From an uncultured Desulfovibrionaceae bacterium (lineage in GTDB: Bacteria; Desulfobacterota; Desulfovibrionia; Desulfovibrionales; Desulfovibrionaceae), in NCBI GenBank assembly GCA_944324045.1, contig CALUUT010000090.1, forward strand, positions 1 through 39,817: 39,817 nucleotides of DNA, read 5' to 3'. Both the position numbers and the translations under genes were made by a program. Under the pieces are notes generated by a model. The model saw nothing but the letters and a program-made list of their open reading frames with translations. It searched no databases and had not been told where the DNA came from. Of the stretch, positions 12,575 to 20,913 are shown piece after piece. The number at the start of each line of letters is the position of its first letter. Within the stretch, counting starts at the first letter, position 1.

Positions 12575-12609
12575 AAAAACCCTGAGGTCAGATGACTTCA
12601 GGGTTTTTT
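12575..12609 (+). terminator. Rho-independent terminator of ffs
   Basis: The hairpin CCCTGA-GTCA/TGAC-TCAGGG is flanked by an A run before and TTTTTT after it, directly behind the SRP RNA. Confidence 0.9.
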
Positions 12610-12878: not shown

Positions 12879-14254
12879 TTACAGAAAACCAAACAACTTC
12901 CATAAGGGAATTTCAACCAGTAGAACCAAAATAAAAGGAATGACGCTCAGCGGCAGCCCCAGGCGCAAAATGTCCTTGTCGGTAAATCCGCCCTGTTTCT
13001 CGCCCACACCCACCAGGATATTCATATGATGGAAGGGTAAAAGATACTGACTGTACACCACAGTAAAGCAGAAAAGCGCGGGAATGAGTGGATTCAGCCC
13101 GGCCTTGACGCCAAACGCCACAAACGCGGGTATCGTGACGCTCAACACTGCCATAACGCTGCCTATGCACATGTGCAGAATAATGCCCACAACCGCGATA
13201 ATGGCTCCGAACAGGAAAATATTGTCAGGCGCGACAGAAGGCAGAAAAGAATTTGCTAGCCACATGTTCATTCCCGAAATATCGCCAACCTTTCCGATAC
13301 TCAAGGCTGCGAGCACAAACAGTAAAATCCCGAGGGGCACATCATTCCACGAAGCAGGCCCCACAGCACCGCCGACAAAGGGAAGGGCCATGAAAATCGC
13401 TGTGCCGATGCTTACCCATCCGGGATGAATCCCGTGCAGCGATTCCGTCATCCAGCCGACAACTGTAACTACGCACCAGAAAAGCGTGCGCCACTCAACA
13501 GGCTTAACCGGACCCATTTCAGTCAGCGTTGCGAGCATGCGCTCCTTGTTGGGTTGAAAATTGCCTCTGGGTTTATAAATTTTAAGATGCACAAAAATGG
13601 TTATCAGCGTGGCCACGATGCCGGGAATGCTCATATACTGCACCCAACCGACCCAACCCAGGCTCTGGCCGGACATACCAATAGCCATCATGCTCAAAAC
13701 GCTGTCGCCGGTAAGCAGAATCAACGAAACCGGAACAGAGCCGGCAAACACGGCAACCCCCAAATTCACGATATCAGGCGTAGGCATTTTGGCGTCCTTG
13801 GCAAGGATGACCAGAACCGACATGATAAGAAAACTGCGCGCAAACGACAGGGGAATGAAAATACTAAGCAAAAAGCCCAAAACATATGCTCCGATAATCA
13901 AGCTTGTATAGGAGCGGATATATCTTGTTGCATAAATATATGCCAGACGCTTGCCCAACCCGCTGCGGTTCACGGCAGAGGCCATGATATAGCTGCCGAT
14001 AATCAAATACATCATGGGTGTGGTCCACATGCCAAGGACCACTGCCGGCGGCGCGACTTTAAAAACAATATACCCAAGAAGCAAAAGAAGTGATGTATAG
14101 CCCGGATGCATGACCCCCCCGGTCCACCAGAACACGGCAAGAAGGCTCATGCCCATACAACGTCTTCCTTCCGGGGACAACCCCGGAATGTCCACAATGA
14201 ACAAAACGGCGGCGCAGACAATGCCAAGGATCAAAGTTATGAGTTTTTTTTCAT
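12879..14254 (-). CDS. DASS (SLC13-like) anion/carboxylate transporter, apparent frameshift at the start
   Basis: This is a polytopic inner-membrane protein of the divalent anion:Na+ symporter type, about 458 residues with 11-13 hydrophobic segments. It has a central PNKERMLATLTEMGPVKPVEWRTLFW cytoplasmic loop and LTGDSVLSMM- and LLPFHHMNILVG-type loops. These carriers import di- and tricarboxylates, sulfate or related anions. The downstream position after ubiD suggests uptake of the acid that UbiD decarboxylates. The natural start appears to be the ATG at 14252-14254, with AAGGGG seven bases upstream and reading MKKKLITL. The A8 tract after it is one base short, so that ATG runs into a stop after five codons. 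The main frame itself stays open upstream to an ATG at 14321, so a longer protein is possible. Confidence 0.8.
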
Positions 14255-14431
14255 AGGAAAACCCCTTTTCAAAAAATATCCCTTGGCGCGCGGCCCGGCC
14301 TTCAACACAGACCGCGCGCATTTCAAGACGTCCAAGGTTTGCGCGCTTTCATGACCCTGACGGGACTATCCCGCTCAAACGCACAAAACCTGCTCGCCGC
14401 TTACGGCGCTTTCCGGCATGAAACGGCAGAG

Positions 14432-15793
14432 TTAGGGCTTTGGGGTTTTCGCCAACACATACTTGTTTAAATTCACGTCGCGGAATGCCACCCGTCTGAA
14501 TCGTTCGGTTACGGGTACAGGACAGGTGCAATCAAAACCAATTTTGTTGACAAGACCGTTTTTGACCATAGGATTCAATTCATGCCCATATGAGCCGCGC
14601 ACAATCACCAAATCTTTTTCCGGGTCAAAGCGCGTGGAAAGAGCCCACTGGACCTCATCCTGACTGAAGATATCCACATCTGAATTCACCACAGTCACCA
14701 CCTGCAAAGGCGGAAACGCGGCAAACGTGGCCATGATAGCCTGCTTGGCAAAACCGGGCGCCTTGGGATCCATCTGCACCACAGCGGTGTATATGCCGCT
14801 AGGCATATACACATTTGAAATGCCCGACATCTGCTTGGAAATAGTGTCATAAATTGAAGCTTCCCCAGTCAGACCAACGCAGTTATAAACTTCCATTCCC
14901 GGCAACAGGCTGTGAATAATGGGATTTTCACGTCGGGTAATGGCCTTGATGTTCACCACCCAGCGTTCGTCCTGCTCGCCGTAGTAGCCGGCGACCTCGC
15001 CAAAGGGACCTTCAGGCTCGCGCGTATAGGGCAGAATTTCGCCTTCAATGATATACTGCGCGTCCGCAATCCCCTCAGGAGCAACCGTTAAGCTTTTGCT
15101 CAGGCGCACAGGTTCCCCCAGAATAACAGAAGCTATGCCCAATTCATCCGCATCCAAGGGAGCAGCGCCGCTGGGGCTAATGGCAGCCATGACAACCGCG
15201 GGCGAAACGCCGTTGTTGATGGTGATTTCAAGAGGCTTGCCCCGGCTTTCCGCACGCTCATAGTAATCGCGCAGGTGACGTCCCTTATCCATGAGCATAG
15301 TCAAACGATTGGGACCAGTGACCATAAAGCGGTGAATCGAAGCGTTGCGTACGCCGGTATCCGGATCCTTAGCGATAACCACGCTGTTGGATAAATAATG
15401 GCCGCCATCTTCCAGCGCCAAAATGGGGGTGGGCAAGGCGGTCACATCCACAGGATCAAGGCGCACTTCCTGGGCTGGTGCGTTTTCCGCAATAACCGGT
15501 TCAACTTCCGCGCTCCCGGCCTTAGCCCTCCACTCCGCAAAGGCCTGGCCAATGTAAAAAGGAAGATCCCGTGCGCTCTTGCCGAATATCTTGCCCAAAT
15601 TATCTCGCGACCACATAAGCCCAATCAGCACAGGAAAATCAAATCCCTTGGGTTTTTCAAAAAGCAGCACCTCCCGGCCTTCCATTTTCTTTGCAATGCC
15701 GGCCAGCTCATATTTCATATCCACTTCACTTTTTACCCTGACCAAGCGTCCATCCTGTTCCAAAATTTCCACACAAGCCTGTAAATCGCGCAT
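14432..15793 (-). CDS. UbiD-family prenylated-FMN decarboxylase
   Basis: UbiD enzymes use prenylated FMN to decarboxylate aromatic or alpha,beta-unsaturated acids reversibly. The 453-residue protein matches the family in length. It has the N-terminal MRDLQACVEILEQDGRL, an NASIHRFMV segment near 150-158 with the conserved Arg (R155), and the acidic region IIEGEILPYTREPEGPFGEVAGYYG (E250 and E261), as expected for the cofactor and proton-relay site. The start at 15793 has AAGGAG seven bases upstream. The longer frame upstream encodes a hydrophobic stretch that is really the promoter region. The UbiX prenyltransferase that makes the cofactor is not in the window. The substrate is unknown; the gene symbol ubiD is withheld because many members do not act in ubiquinone synthesis. 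Confidence 0.93.
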   Translation of the reverse strand: MRDLQACVEILEQDGRLVRVKSEVDMKYELAGIAKKMEGREVLLFEKPKGFDFPVLIGLMWSRDNLGKIFGKSARDLPFYIGQAFAEWRAKAGSAEVEPVIAENAPAQEVRLDPVDVTALPTPILALEDGGHYLSNSVVIAKDPDTGVRNASIHRFMVTGPNRLTMLMDKGRHLRDYYERAESRGKPLEITINNGVSPAVVMAAISPSGAAPLDADELGIASVILGEPVRLSKSLTVAPEGIADAQYIIEGEILPYTREPEGPFGEVAGYYGEQDERWVVNIKAITRRENPIIHSLLPGMEVYNCVGLTGEASIYDTISKQMSGISNVYMPSGIYTAVVQMDPKAPGFAKQAIMATFAAFPPLQVVTVVNSDVDIFSQDEVQWALSTRFDPEKDLVIVRGSYGHELNPMVKNGLVNKIGFDCTCPVPVTERFRRVAFRDVNLNKYVLAKTPKP

Positions 15794-15851
15794 GTTTTTC
15801 TCCTTATATTTTTTGGATGTTACAATGAATGGCGATAATGCACCTGTACAT

Positions 15852-15868
15852 AGCAAAAGCTCTGCCAA
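15852..15868 (-). promoter_or_regulatory. Sigma-54 (-24/-12) promoter of the ubiD-transporter operon
   Basis: On the minus strand TTGGCAGAGCTTTTGCT matches the RpoN consensus, with GG and GC exactly 12 bases apart and the flanking TTGGCA and TTGCT intact. The predicted start of transcription is near 15841, about 48 bases ahead of the ubiD ATG. A divergent gene for a sigma-54 activator lies next to it, which strengthens the call. Confidence 0.85.
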
Positions 15869-15930: not shown

Positions 15931-15954
15931 GACGGGCCTCCAAATGAGCCCGTC
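15931..15954. terminator. Terminator-like hairpin between the divergent genes
   Basis: GACGGGC pairs with GCCCGTC around a ten-base loop. On the minus strand TTTTTTAT follows directly; on the plus strand a T-rich stretch (ATTTTCTTATTTTT) comes after a short gap. It is upstream of the sigma-54 promoter, so it may insulate ubiD from leftward transcripts starting near the regulator gene. Confidence 0.6.
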
Positions 15955-16055: not shown

Positions 16056-19000
16056 ATGTCTGAAACGGCCCGACTCCGCACGGCAAAGCTGGCAGCACTC
16101 ATTGTAAGACTTCCGGAAGCCCACCCCAAGGTGTTGAAGGATCTTTCAGGTTGGAATCAAGAACAACTCAATGCAGCCATAAAAGCACTGCAACAAGAAC
16201 AGCTCATCGAAAAAAAAGCGGGGCTTTTCTTTGCTCCAGACCAATACCGACTTGCTCAGGCAGCCGCGCAAAACAGAGGCGGTTTTCTCTTCAAGGAAAA
16301 GGAAGGCTCCTTTTTTGAATTTCTTTCTCTTGAAGAGGATGAAAAACATGAGGCAGCCACGCGTGTGCTGCTGGAACTGCACGGCCGCCTGCGCTCAAGC
16401 GGGCGGGAAGCATCGCCGGCTTTGCTCTTTCATCTCTTTCTGCAAAAACTCACCAAGCTGATTCCAGATGAAAACGACAGTCAGGGAAAACGATTTTTTA
16501 TTGATTTGTGCATTGATATCCAGCCAGGGTTTTATGCAAGGCCAGATGACTTGCAACGCTTCCTGTATTTTTTGCAACAAGCGCGAACCATGGCCCAAAG
16601 TCTAGGAGACCGTCGCAGCGAACTACTACTGCATCTTGCGCTTGGCGCCACAAGCCTGCAATGTCGTTCCCAGGCATACCGTCCTGACATCCGAAAAATC
16701 ATGCAGCAAGGAGCGGACACGGTTCAAAAACTGGGAGACATGGATATCATGTCCCGCGTGGCGCCCTATATGTATTCCTATAATTTCTTTTGCGGCGACT
16801 TTCAGCGAATCCTTGGCAGCGCTTCCTTTTTGCCTGTTGAACAAGCACCGGGCAACGGCGTCAATCGACATATTGAGGGAACAAGGATTCTCTTCCGCAG
16901 TTCCTGCCTCGCAGCCATGGGAAAATTTTCCCAAGCTGTGGAGATGCTGCAGCAATCCACCTCCAGTCCCTTCTTAATGGAATCCGATGATATCAGCCTG
17001 CTTTTGCGCATCCATCTCGCCTTTCTGCTCCTTGCCAGCGGGCGCATGTCCGAGGCTCGTCCATTTATTGAAGAAGCCCGCCGTGCCATTGACAAGGATC
17101 CGTTCGATTTCTGCCATACAGGAGTCGCCGGAGCCGAGGCCTACCTGCATTATTTGCAGGGCAATATACAAGAATCCTACGCCATATATCTGCAGGCGGC
17201 CAGGGAGTCCACCCAAAAGGGCACCGCGTTCTGGCCGCTCTATTTTGCGCCGTGGTTTCTGGAAATGTGCGTCCGATATCGCCGGGAGGGCTTGCCGGCT
17301 CTGCCGGGCAAGGAAATCGACGATGTGCTCTTTTTTCAGACCAAAGGCGTCTCCCGCATGATTCAGGCTGTGGCCATGCGCCTGAGTGCGGAAAACATGC
17401 TGTTTGAAAACAACGGCAACATTGAGGCATGTAAAGATTTATGCCAACAGGCTCTGGCCATAGCCCAAAGCATAAATACGCCGGGGGAGACAGCCAAGCT
17501 GCATTGTCTCATGGCGCGGCTGCTGCTACGCGAAAAAGATCGAAACGAAGCGCGCAAGGAGGCGTTCAAGGCGGCTCACGCGCGGGCACAAACCCAAGAA
17601 GCCATCCCCTGGCCGGATGAACTAAGCGCCTTGGGGGTTATACCGCAAAGCAATGGAACCCTGGACGTCAAAGCAACGGACAACAGGCTCGCACGCTATA
17701 TCAAGGCCATGCTTGCGGTTAATTCCGCAGGCAGCCTAGACGAGGCATATAACAATATTGTTCGCATCTCCACCACGGAACTGGGCATGGACAAAGGTGG
17801 TCTTTTCGCGCTCCGGGCAGGCAATAATGAGTTGCAGCAACTTGCATGGCATCAGGTAAACCCACTGGACCAGCCTCTGCTCAACTTCACTGCCCTGCAA
17901 AAGGCCGTTGCCTCCAGGCCACGCGTTATCCGTATTCAGGATAAGGACAAGCAGGGAAACGCGCGCTTCATCCGGGCTTGTCTCATTCCTTTTTACTGCG
18001 ACGACAACACCGCTTATGTATTATTTCATGAAGTCTGCGGCCCTATAGATGAAACTACGTTCATGGATGAATCCTTTCTTGAAAGCATTGCCGAAACCCT
18101 CTCCGAAGTGCTGGTCAATGTGCGCAGGGTCTGCGCAAAAATCAACGAATACCGCGTTGCAGTAAGCCAGTCCGGAGCCCGTGAAGAAATGTCGGGAATT
18201 ATCTACAGCGGTCCCGAAATGGAAACTGTTCTCCGCCAGGCCCAATCTGTGGCGGAAACCGATGCTCCAGTGCTGATCATGGGGGAATCAGGAGTAGGCA
18301 AGGAATTGGTCGCGCGCTACATCCACCGGCAAAGTAAACGTAGCGGAGCATTTATTGCGGTGAATCTTTCCAGCATTCCAGGTGAACTTTTTGAATCGGA
18401 ACTGTTTGGACATGAAAAAGGAGCTTTTACCGGGGCGCACAGAAGCAAAGTGGGTTTTTTGGAACTCGCCCATCAGGGAACTGTTTTTTTTGATGAAATA
18501 GGCGACGTTTCTCTGCGTTTTCAGGTTAAACTATTGAGGGTTCTTCAGGATAAGCACTTTTCCCGCGTAGGCGGACGCCAGTCCATTAAGTCTGAATTTC
18601 GACTTATCTGCGCCACAAACCGCAACATAAAAGCACTTATTGAATCCGGGGATTTCAGGGAAGATTTTTTTTACCGCATCTGCGTCGTGCCGCTGCTTGT
18701 GCCGCCTTTGCGCAGTAGGCCTGGAGACATTCTGCACCTGACCGAACACTTTCTCAAAGTCTTTGCCCGCCACCACAACCGTTCCATACCAAACCGTCTA
18801 AGTGTGGCTCAGGCGAATATGCTCCTAAACTATTCTTGGCCCGGCAATATCCGCGAGCTGCGTAATATCGTGGAACGGGCAGTCATCCTGCATCACGGAG
18901 GTGAAGTGCATTTTTCCATCCCCACCTCCAAATCCGAAAAAAGGCAACAGCCCGTAACACTTCCAGACATTCCGACCTGGCTGAACCAAACCCGGCCGCT

Positions 19001-19262
19001 CTACCCAACCCATCTTCCCACAAATACGAACACACCGGCCCACCCCCTGCGTTCCGACATGCTCGGACCTGCGGATTTCTTCCAAACACTCCCTTCCCTG
19101 GAAGCCGTCCGCGCATACTATATCCGTTATGTACTGGAAAAAACCAAAGGCATTGTCGACGGGCCGCATGGCGCGGCTGAAATTTTGGGGCTTTCACGCG
19201 CCTCGGCATATAAGGCACTCAAAAAATACAATATCATCGCAAAAAAAATCAGGAGCTCCTAA
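16056..19262 (+). CDS. Sigma-54-dependent activator with large TPR-like and GAF-like N-terminal region
   Basis: This 1068-residue protein is far longer than typical enhancer-binding proteins (about 450-650). Residues 1-70 look like a winged helix. Residues 110-530 are helical and repeat-like, with TPR/MalT-like character (QAVEMLQQ, EARPFIEEARRAI, DLCQQALAIAQS). Residues 545-700 resemble a GAF domain. The AAA+ domain (about 715-945) has Walker A GESGVGKE near 743, the sigma-54 contact loop GAFTGA near 789, Walker B VFFDEIGD, and the sensor segment REDFFYRI. A Pro-rich linker leads to a Fis-type helix-turn-helix (AAEILGLSRASAYKALKKY). The gene is divergent from ubiD and its sigma-54 promoter, so it probably activates that operon. 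A GGGGAG ribosome site precedes the ATG. The ligand is unknown. Confidence 0.92.
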   Translation: MSETARLRTAKLAALIVRLPEAHPKVLKDLSGWNQEQLNAAIKALQQEQLIEKKAGLFFAPDQYRLAQAAAQNRGGFLFKEKEGSFFEFLSLEEDEKHEAATRVLLELHGRLRSSGREASPALLFHLFLQKLTKLIPDENDSQGKRFFIDLCIDIQPGFYARPDDLQRFLYFLQQARTMAQSLGDRRSELLLHLALGATSLQCRSQAYRPDIRKIMQQGADTVQKLGDMDIMSRVAPYMYSYNFFCGDFQRILGSASFLPVEQAPGNGVNRHIEGTRILFRSSCLAAMGKFSQAVEMLQQSTSSPFLMESDDISLLLRIHLAFLLLASGRMSEARPFIEEARRAIDKDPFDFCHTGVAGAEAYLHYLQGNIQESYAIYLQAARESTQKGTAFWPLYFAPWFLEMCVRYRREGLPALPGKEIDDVLFFQTKGVSRMIQAVAMRLSAENMLFENNGNIEACKDLCQQALAIAQSINTPGETAKLHCLMARLLLREKDRNEARKEAFKAAHARAQTQEAIPWPDELSALGVIPQSNGTLDVKATDNRLARYIKAMLAVNSAGSLDEAYNNIVRISTTELGMDKGGLFALRAGNNELQQLAWHQVNPLDQPLLNFTALQKAVASRPRVIRIQDKDKQGNARFIRACLIPFYCDDNTAYVLFHEVCGPIDETTFMDESFLESIAETLSEVLVNVRRVCAKINEYRVAVSQSGAREEMSGIIYSGPEMETVLRQAQSVAETDAPVLIMGESGVGKELVARYIHRQSKRSGAFIAVNLSSIPGELFESELFGHEKGAFTGAHRSKVGFLELAHQGTVFFDEIGDVSLRFQVKLLRVLQDKHFSRVGGRQSIKSEFRLICATNRNIKALIESGDFREDFFYRICVVPLLVPPLRSRPGDILHLTEHFLKVFARHHNRSIPNRLSVAQANMLLNYSWPGNIRELRNIVERAVILHHGGEVHFSIPTSKSEKRQQPVTLPDIPTWLNQTRPLYPTHLPTNTNTPAHPLRSDMLGPADFFQTLPSLEAVRAYYIRYVLEKTKGIVDGPHGAAEILGLSRASAYKALKKYNIIAKKIRSS

Positions 19263-19349: not shown

Positions 19350-19994
19350 GCCCGCGCATCCGCACCCTCCATCGAAGCCGCGCCGCCGGGACTCAAGGCC
19401 GCCAGTGTAATCGCGGGGGCCACGCCGTTATTGATGGTTATCTCCAACGGCTTGCCCTGACGTTCCGCACGTTCGTAATAGTCCCGTAAATGGCGTCCTT
19501 TATCCATCAACATAGTCAGTCGTCCCGGCCCAGCCACCATAATCCGATTGGAGGGACGCGTTGCGTACCCCGGTATCCGGGTCTTGAGCGATAACCACTC
19601 TGTTTGACAGATATGGGCCGCCGTCTTCCAGGGCCAAAATGGAAGCAGGCAACGCCGTCATGTCAACCGGATTAAGACGGATTTCCTGGGCCGGAACTTT
19701 TGCGCGACTACAGGCTCAATTTCAGGATTTCCAGGCAGCCATGGATTCAGCGATATAAAACGGCAGTTGCCGCGCGCTTTTGCCGGATATGACGCCCAGA
19801 TTTTCGCGCGACCACATAAGCCCAGTCAAAACCGGAACATCAAACCCTTTGGGGCGTTCGAAAAGAAGCGCCTCTTTTCCTTCCATCTTCTTGGCTGTCC
19901 CGGCAAGTTCATATTCAAGAGCCGCTTTGCTTTTCACTTTTGCCAATCGGCCTTCAGCCTCAAGAATTCGTATGCACGCCTGCAAATCACGCAT
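19350..19994 (-). pseudogene. Truncated, frameshifted second ubiD copy
   Basis: The minus strand carries clear similarity to the intact ubiD at 14432-15793, beginning MRDLQACIRILEAEGRLAKV at 19994. The homologous segments fall in different frames: MRDLQ...AAWKS, then GNPEIEPVVAQ, then AQEIRLNPVDMTALPASILALEDGG...TGVRNAS, then MVAGPGRLTMLMDKGRHLRDYYER. At least three frameshifts are needed to join them. Similarity stops around the residue matching 213 of 453, so the C-terminal half with the catalytic acidic region is missing. The gene is convergent with the regulator. A GG-N10-GC pair at 20064-20077 sits where a decayed -24/-12 promoter could be. Confidence 0.9.
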
Positions 19995-20913
19995 GGGCTT
20001 TCTCTTTTTTTCGCTTCATGCATTGGGCAATGCCGTCGGTTTATACCGCGTCCGCGGCAAACAGCTTGCATGATTCCTTCGTTTTTTTAAAGAAAAAAAT
20101 ACAAAATGATAAATAAAAAAGTCAATTTTATGCACTACAGCAAACAGTAAAAAATCATATGGCAATGCAGCATGTTTGGCGACATATGAAGCGTATATTT
20201 TGCAACAGGCTGTTTTGCTATTGGCAAAACGAACAAAAATGATTAAAAGATGCTCATGCATATGGGAAAAGTAAAATATACAAAAGAGTTCTTCAAAAAC
20301 AAATCAATTTATCATGAGTTGCGTTGCATGTTTTCATATAAACTTGTGGAGACAGCGGCGTGCAGGTAAAGCATGACTGATTTCAACCGCGAAAATCGAC
20401 ATCCGCCTTACCTTGGACTATTCCGCCCAGAATAACGTATGAAAAAACGGCAAATTCGCTCAGATTCATCGTATGCAGACAAAGCAGGTATATGCCCTTA
20501 TTGAAATCCGTCTCCTAGGCGCACGGCAAACATGCCATATTTCTTTGCTGACCAGAACGACCGGTTCGCCGACACTGTCCGCGCAAACGCGCTTTGCAAT
20601 GCGGGAGCCCAATTTTCATGAACGGCCGCGTTCGCTTTTGGACAATATTATGATCAACCATTTCCGGCGCGCTCCTGAACTATGAAGATACGCGTCCGCA
20701 TGCCTTAAGTAAAAACGGCTTAAAAGATTGCCAAAGGCATCGGCAAACAGCCCGCCTTCCGCAACCAACCCCGTCCGCAAGCATTCAAGCCGAAACAGCG
20801 CCGCATACGGCTGTCATATTTTTTTAAGAATAGCCAAAGACAGTCATAAACTGAAAAACCATTCTCCGTTATCCGAAAGCAATGGAGATCACCTTTACAC
20901 AGCAGCAGTAAAA
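19995..20913. other. Long spacer without an intact gene
   Basis: About 920 bases lie between the ubiD relic and the MFS gene. The first 300 are AT-rich and contain a small hairpin (GTTTTGC/GCAAAAC, about 20210-20228). Bases 20470-20690 are more GC-rich with codon-like composition on both strands, but every frame is short and no ribosome site or family motif is visible. It may be a gene in decay. The last part leads into the MFS frame, which is open from 20728 without similarity before 20914. Confidence 0.5.

Follow-up and report, generated by a model that had tools for sequence, protein, structure and literature searches.

An A8 tract at the probable start codon places the start and the body of a DASS-type transporter gene in different reading frames in an uncultured Desulfovibrionaceae bacterium

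Short A or T runs in the first codons of a gene can decide whether the gene is expressed, and 5' poly(A) tracts are documented as off-switches (PMC2831843). The account given there describes such runs in Listeria monocytogenes inlA, Bacillus subtilis swrA, and Campylobacter coli flhA. In inlA, the wrong tract length results in a peptide of 8 amino acids, several lengths are described in strains and fusions, and the length of the 5' poly(A) varies often, ~1000-fold above the average point-mutation frequency. Poly(A) phase variation is also described for p78 of Mycoplasma fermentans, where the length of the A run decides the frame and switching is reported, in a treatment that lists A runs longer than seven as slippage sites (PMC3711429). 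Out-of-frame tracts can also be read through. In the insect endosymbionts Buchnera and Blochmannia, frameshifted genes with poly(A) are rescued by RNA-polymerase slippage (PMC5009743), and in the plastid atpB mutant I-iota of Oenothera, an indel in a 5' oligo-A is partly corrected by recoding (PMC8254509). Ribosomal -1 frameshifting on A_AAA_AAG (dnaX) or A_AAA_AAC (in an IS cluster; PMC4066793) combines the exact heptamer with an upstream Shine-Dalgarno sequence.

The locus described here lies in a stretch of 39,817 nucleotides (the window; positions 1 to 39,817 of contig CALUUT010000090.1, assembly GCA_944324045.1). The start codon and the A tract are on the minus strand, a point on which the sequence-only reading that had drawn attention to the tract was silent. 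The features of the start region are as follows.

12879-14254, minus strand: DASS/SLC13-type anion transporter gene, whose body is shifted by -1 from the frame of the ATG (Pfam PF00939; aligns with relatives to the C-terminus)
14244-14254, minus strand: ATG followed by A8, the ATG frame reading MKKNS-stop (from the sequence)
14243-14249, minus strand: slippery heptamer A_AAA_AAC, exact, of the -1 type and in the phase of the ATG frame (from the sequence; motif class as described in PMC5009743 and PMC4066793)
14262-14267, minus strand: Shine-Dalgarno sequence AAGGGG, 7 nt 5' of the ATG and 12 nt 5' of the heptamer (spacing from the coordinates)
14286-14319, minus strand: strong hairpin lying between the transporter gene and ubiD; it begins on the last base of the ATG at 14321-14319
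14319-14321, minus strand: the only upstream in-frame ATG, a rival start (opening energy, 25.2 kcal/mol)

After the ATG (14254-14252) come exactly eight A (14251-14244) and then CTCATAA, letters from which the predicted encounter with a TAA after five codons can be read directly. The transporter frame lies at -1 relative to this ATG, reads ...GFSYEKKLITLILG..., and comprises 457 otherwise open codons up to a stop that ends at 12879; upstream, it is open to 14348. The sequence-only reading had held that the two frames would join only if the run held nine A. Eight A are indeed out of frame, but the statement was too narrow, as any length of the same phase joins them. Its suggestion that slippage on A8 would restore the frame also stands, and the tract contains an exact A_AAA_AAC that had gone unremarked.

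Compared with the described systems, the transporter gene resembles inlA, swrA, and flhA in having a short run in its first codons, and the resulting peptide would be 5 rather than 8 amino acids long. In contrast to the several lengths described for inlA, one state is known at our site, and the gene encodes a transporter beside a decarboxylase. As in p78, tract length near the start sets the frame, provided that translation begins at 14254; switching is reported for p78, whereas our site has been read in a single genome. The endosymbiont tracts are described as long runs in genomes of >70% A+T with 12 to 50% of the transcripts corrected, compared with A8 and a GC content of ~54% (genome sample) here. 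The heptamer and its upstream Shine-Dalgarno sequence recall dnaX and the IS elements as these are described, but the heptamer occupies the third and fourth codons, is of the type weaker in E. coli, has no unusual structure, and is not conserved. The I-iota mutation differs in its eleven A, in being an insertion, and in affecting a plastid gene. Judged by its anatomy in the sequence, the site belongs with the 5' poly(A) frame switches already described, a kind defined by variation in the tract; a single tract state is known here. No start-codon poly(A) switch in a DASS transporter turned up in the open-licence literature searched, which is a weak negative.

We characterized the gene through its relatives. 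Pfam PF00939 matched the transporter with 87.9 bits (cutoff, 27), while the match to NCBIfam TIGR00785 did not reach its cutoff (86.1 versus 198.6 bits). By profile comparison, this marks the protein as a DASS/SLC13-type transporter that is related to, but outside, the curated TIGR00785 subfamily; a PDB sequence search likewise matched DASS-type transporters (best E value, 3.8e-09). Counting its own genome, homologues with E values of <=1e-60 were present in 3 of 288 genomes of the family and in the same 3 of 348 genomes of the class. The best identity among the genomes scanned was 52%. Scanning genome contigs returned 3 loci at 41 to 51% identity, of which one (L003) is apparently the same stretch as another homologue (L008), and scanning viral contigs returned no matches to the transporter.

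In the same genome, a paralogue (L002; 50% identity) starts ATGAAGAAAAAACAATTGATC downstream of GAGGAG; it reads MKKKQLIGFVVGIV (MKKKQLIGF). Two other genomes of the family contribute four homologues (L006 to L009), which apparently start no more than a few residues from the same position in the alignment. All five starts were assigned by eye, and the ATG at 14254 aligns with them. The upstream frame is closed by a stop within 5 to 21 codons in L002, L007, L008, and L009; it is open for 93 codons in L006, and L009 has an extra in-frame ATG 10 codons upstream. The transporter body contains no internal stop. Counting from column 30, 140 alignment columns are invariant across six other homologues, and the body keeps 107 of them. 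By the same measure, L002 keeps 107 of 121 and a planctomycete homologue (L004) 107 of 158; a partial match of 183 residues (L005) was left out of the alignment of starts and body, and the duplicate L003 was left out of the column count. A long-dead gene would be expected to carry stops by now, while a gene broken only recently would resemble this body. At one motif, the transporter reads IPLSFAR where six other aligned homologues read IPHPWPR, a change that may reflect either another substrate or relaxed constraint.

We next compared the site with all others of its kind in the genome. The whole genome contains 25 matches to ATG-A8 (24 with exactly eight A and one with nine), compared with 2 for the reversed control pattern, indicating that starts in this genome commonly have A-rich second codons and that ATG-A8 by itself is unremarkable. 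In five of the 25, the ATG frame is closed within 30 codons and the -1 frame is open for at least 60. One of these is the transporter site (L030), where the Shine-Dalgarno sequence is the strongest of all 25 and the closest in-frame start upstream is 67 nt away. The other four (L016, L021, L025, and L029) have weak Shine-Dalgarno sequences (+0.6 to -3.9) and either in-frame starts 10 to 49 nt upstream or a frame that has long been open already. We had considered L016, which precedes a frame judged by eye to encode an ArsR-type regulator, as a second case; it was rejected as ordinary, as it has in-frame ATGs with good Shine-Dalgarno sequences 10 and 16 nt upstream.

The Shine-Dalgarno score at the ATG at 14254, -7.5 kcal/mol, bears out the good ribosome site that had been claimed for it. 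It is matched by 2.1% of 3000 sample ATGs, and also by 15% of 142 likely starts. The opening energy of the start region was 8.0 kcal/mol, compared with a median of 10.6 kcal/mol for 116 likely starts. Both sets of likely starts were compiled mechanically (long open reading frames, first start near a stop), and some false genes in them are inevitable.

To gauge how well the assembly resolves such tracts, we scored homopolymers in a sample made up of the window and 16 further stretches, which together cover 356,589 bases or 14% of the genome. Among 195 distinct homopolymers of at least six bases that could be scored inside coding frames (16 of them on both strands), 190 were in frame, 2 were ambiguous, and 3 were flagged. 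The three flagged runs, six or seven bases long, all proved to be ordinary gene junctions. All 15 scorable A8/T8 tracts inside genes were in frame, with 40 of the 55 in the sample unscorable, and 0 frame changes in 15 still permits an error rate of up to ~18% (usual 95% bound). The genome contains 43 A9 tracts, compared with 355 A8 tracts; of the 30 A9 loci fetched, three (L072, L074, and L096) were clearly inside genes, with good coding scores on both sides, and were in frame. Because scorable tracts of both lengths keep the frame, a general homopolymer undercall in this assembly is disfavoured.

The reading to which we give slightly better than an even chance is that of an out-of-phase allele of a recently functional transporter gene, which is off or leaky. 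It draws on the strong Shine-Dalgarno sequence and low opening energy at the ATG at 14254, on the agreement in start position of L002 and L006 to L009, on the stop-free body with its conserved columns, on tracts of the same and the next length being resolved inside genes elsewhere in the assembly, and on the precedent of 5' poly(A) off-switches (PMC2831843). Against it, the minimum-energy fold of 14195-14340 partly pairs the Shine-Dalgarno sequence and the ATG; the closest homologue found has 52% identity; the transporter frame is open upstream to an in-frame ATG, so that annotation software could report the gene as intact; and L006 also has a long open upstream frame and L009 a further ATG. 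If translation instead began farther upstream in the main frame, whether from the ATG at 14321 or from a rare non-AUG codon in between, the protein would carry an N-terminal extension of ~23 residues and nothing would be broken. The Shine-Dalgarno sequence at 14321 scores -3.4 kcal/mol, close to the median of -3.3 kcal/mol for the 142 likely starts, weak ones being common here, and is matched by 28% of the 3000 ATGs; the four ATG-A8 look-alikes, moreover, probably lie inside ordinary frames. The open stretch is no evidence either way, since an open run of 32 codons has a chance of 0.43 here, and the total codon score of the 32 codons preceding the tract, 1.38, favours neither coding nor noncoding. 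However, the ATG at 14321 runs into the hairpin, and its opening energy is matched by only 1.7% of the 116 likely starts. The extension has no counterpart in the aligned homologues, and a start there would leave the strong Shine-Dalgarno sequence at 14254 unexplained. Taken together, the Shine-Dalgarno scores, the opening energies, and the start positions in relatives make 14254 very probably the ancestral, natural start of the gene and 14321 a poor but not impossible one, a weak candidate that is still alive; that nothing is broken we consider unlikely, with an appreciable chance nonetheless. A sequencing or assembly error within the tract, with the true gene in frame, had been raised in the sequence-only reading. 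Homopolymers are the usual place for such errors, and A9 is scarcer than one would extrapolate from the falling counts between A6 and A8. The homopolymer survey counts against this as a general problem, so that what survives of the suggestion is an error at this single site, and we judge an error quite unlikely.

Two further readings accept the tract as it stands and let ribosomes cope with it. The tract length could be kept so that -1 slippage, aided by the Shine-Dalgarno sequence, sets a low level of the transporter. Such programmed recoding would fit the exact, in-phase heptamer and a Shine-Dalgarno spacing of 12 nt that is near the 10 nt of a known stimulator, and one IS element is reported with a single Shine-Dalgarno sequence in both roles (PMC5009743). 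Yet the paralogue L002 begins ATGAAGAAAAAACAA, in frame, L006 to L009 are in frame at their apparent starts and lack such a tract, and the folding of 14200-14300 is not unusual (z, -0.17). We therefore regard programmed recoding as improbable, and its elaborated form, in which slippage is programmed in the first codons, one Shine-Dalgarno sequence both initiates translation and stimulates the -1 shift, and the tract also switches the state of the population, as very improbable. Alternatively, ribosomes could finish the five-codon minigene and restart at the TTG at 14234 beside the stop. This TTG is 2 nt after the TAA and in the transporter frame, and translational coupling is one of the classes of reading-frame transitions set out in PMC3711429. 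It has no Shine-Dalgarno sequence (0.4 kcal/mol), however, and a restart there would forfeit the basic N-terminus and, as judged by eye, the beginning of the first hydrophobic stretch; such a restart is scarcely to be expected.

The out-of-phase allele would work as follows. Ribosomes would begin at the natural ATG at 14254, and the length of the A tract would make them terminate after five codons. This state may have arisen when strand slippage altered the tract in a gene that had been functional until recently; the allele would then be either off or much reduced, still yielding a trickle of full-length protein in the latter case. The trickle could come from -1 ribosomal slippage on A_AAA_AAC, which lies 12 nt after the Shine-Dalgarno sequence and makes it plausible, or from RNA-polymerase slippage on A8. 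Replication slippage on the same tract should make the state of the allele easily reversible. Given the heptamer and the published cases of poly(A) slippage and length variation, an allele that is off with some leakage, and reversible, is the natural expectation. Against slippage, PMC5009743 names runs of nine for bacterial RNA polymerase and describes A_AAA_AAC as much less shifty than A_AAA_AAG in E. coli, and constructs with one- and two-base deletions are described as retaining ~5% residual activity in E. coli (PMC8254509).

The surroundings of the transporter gene comprise the following features.

14432-15793, minus strand: UbiD-type decarboxylase gene, upstream of the transporter gene and in the same direction (PF01977, PF20695, PF20696; start taken as the ATG at 15793)
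15853-15867, minus strand: sigma-54-like promoter TGGCAGAGCTTTTGC, ~60 bp before the ubiD ATG (1 mismatch to the consensus, which was sought in three regions)
16056-19262, plus strand: divergent sigma-54 activator (PF00158, 214.5 bits)
19357-19995, minus strand: decayed second ubiD copy, with stops, a frame change, and homology ending well before the C-terminus (71.1% DNA identity to 15145-15794)

The ubiD open reading frame is listed from a TTG at 15943, and the ATG at 15793 has a strong ribosome site (-8.2 versus -2.5 kcal/mol). In two other genomes of the family (G034 and G269), DASS homologues adjoin ubiD homologues or lie ~0.6 to 1.1 kb from them, and the paralogue L002 has a ubiD homologue ~1.2 kb away. 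The UbiD proteins near those DASS homologues share 27 to 33% identity with the UbiD of our locus, and the order there is DASS first. The stretches fetched around the five closest ubiD homologues in other genomes (L052 to L056; 54 to 65%) contained no DASS match. Hence the DASS-ubiD association recurs in the sequences compared, without conservation of this particular pair.

Were the allele leaky or reversible, a cheap genetic switch of a sort known mostly from surface and motility genes would control uptake in a decarboxylase-linked pathway, whose substrate we infer to be an organic acid, and the site would offer a compact setting in which to test frameshifting in the first codons of a gene. 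A fixed loss would make the gene an ordinary early pseudogene. A gene caller choosing the ATG at 14321 would hide the case from annotation.

The decayed ubiD copy, which sits just beyond the sigma-54 activator, indicates that gene loss has happened in the transporter locus. The hairpin between ubiD and the transporter gene has a centroid energy of -25.6 kcal/mol for 14255-14340, with a z score of only -1.7 for the stretch, and is followed at a distance by T6; as modelled, it could be an intercistronic stabiliser or an attenuator. An inverted repeat at 12575-12608, with a stem of 15 pairs, is a possible terminator.
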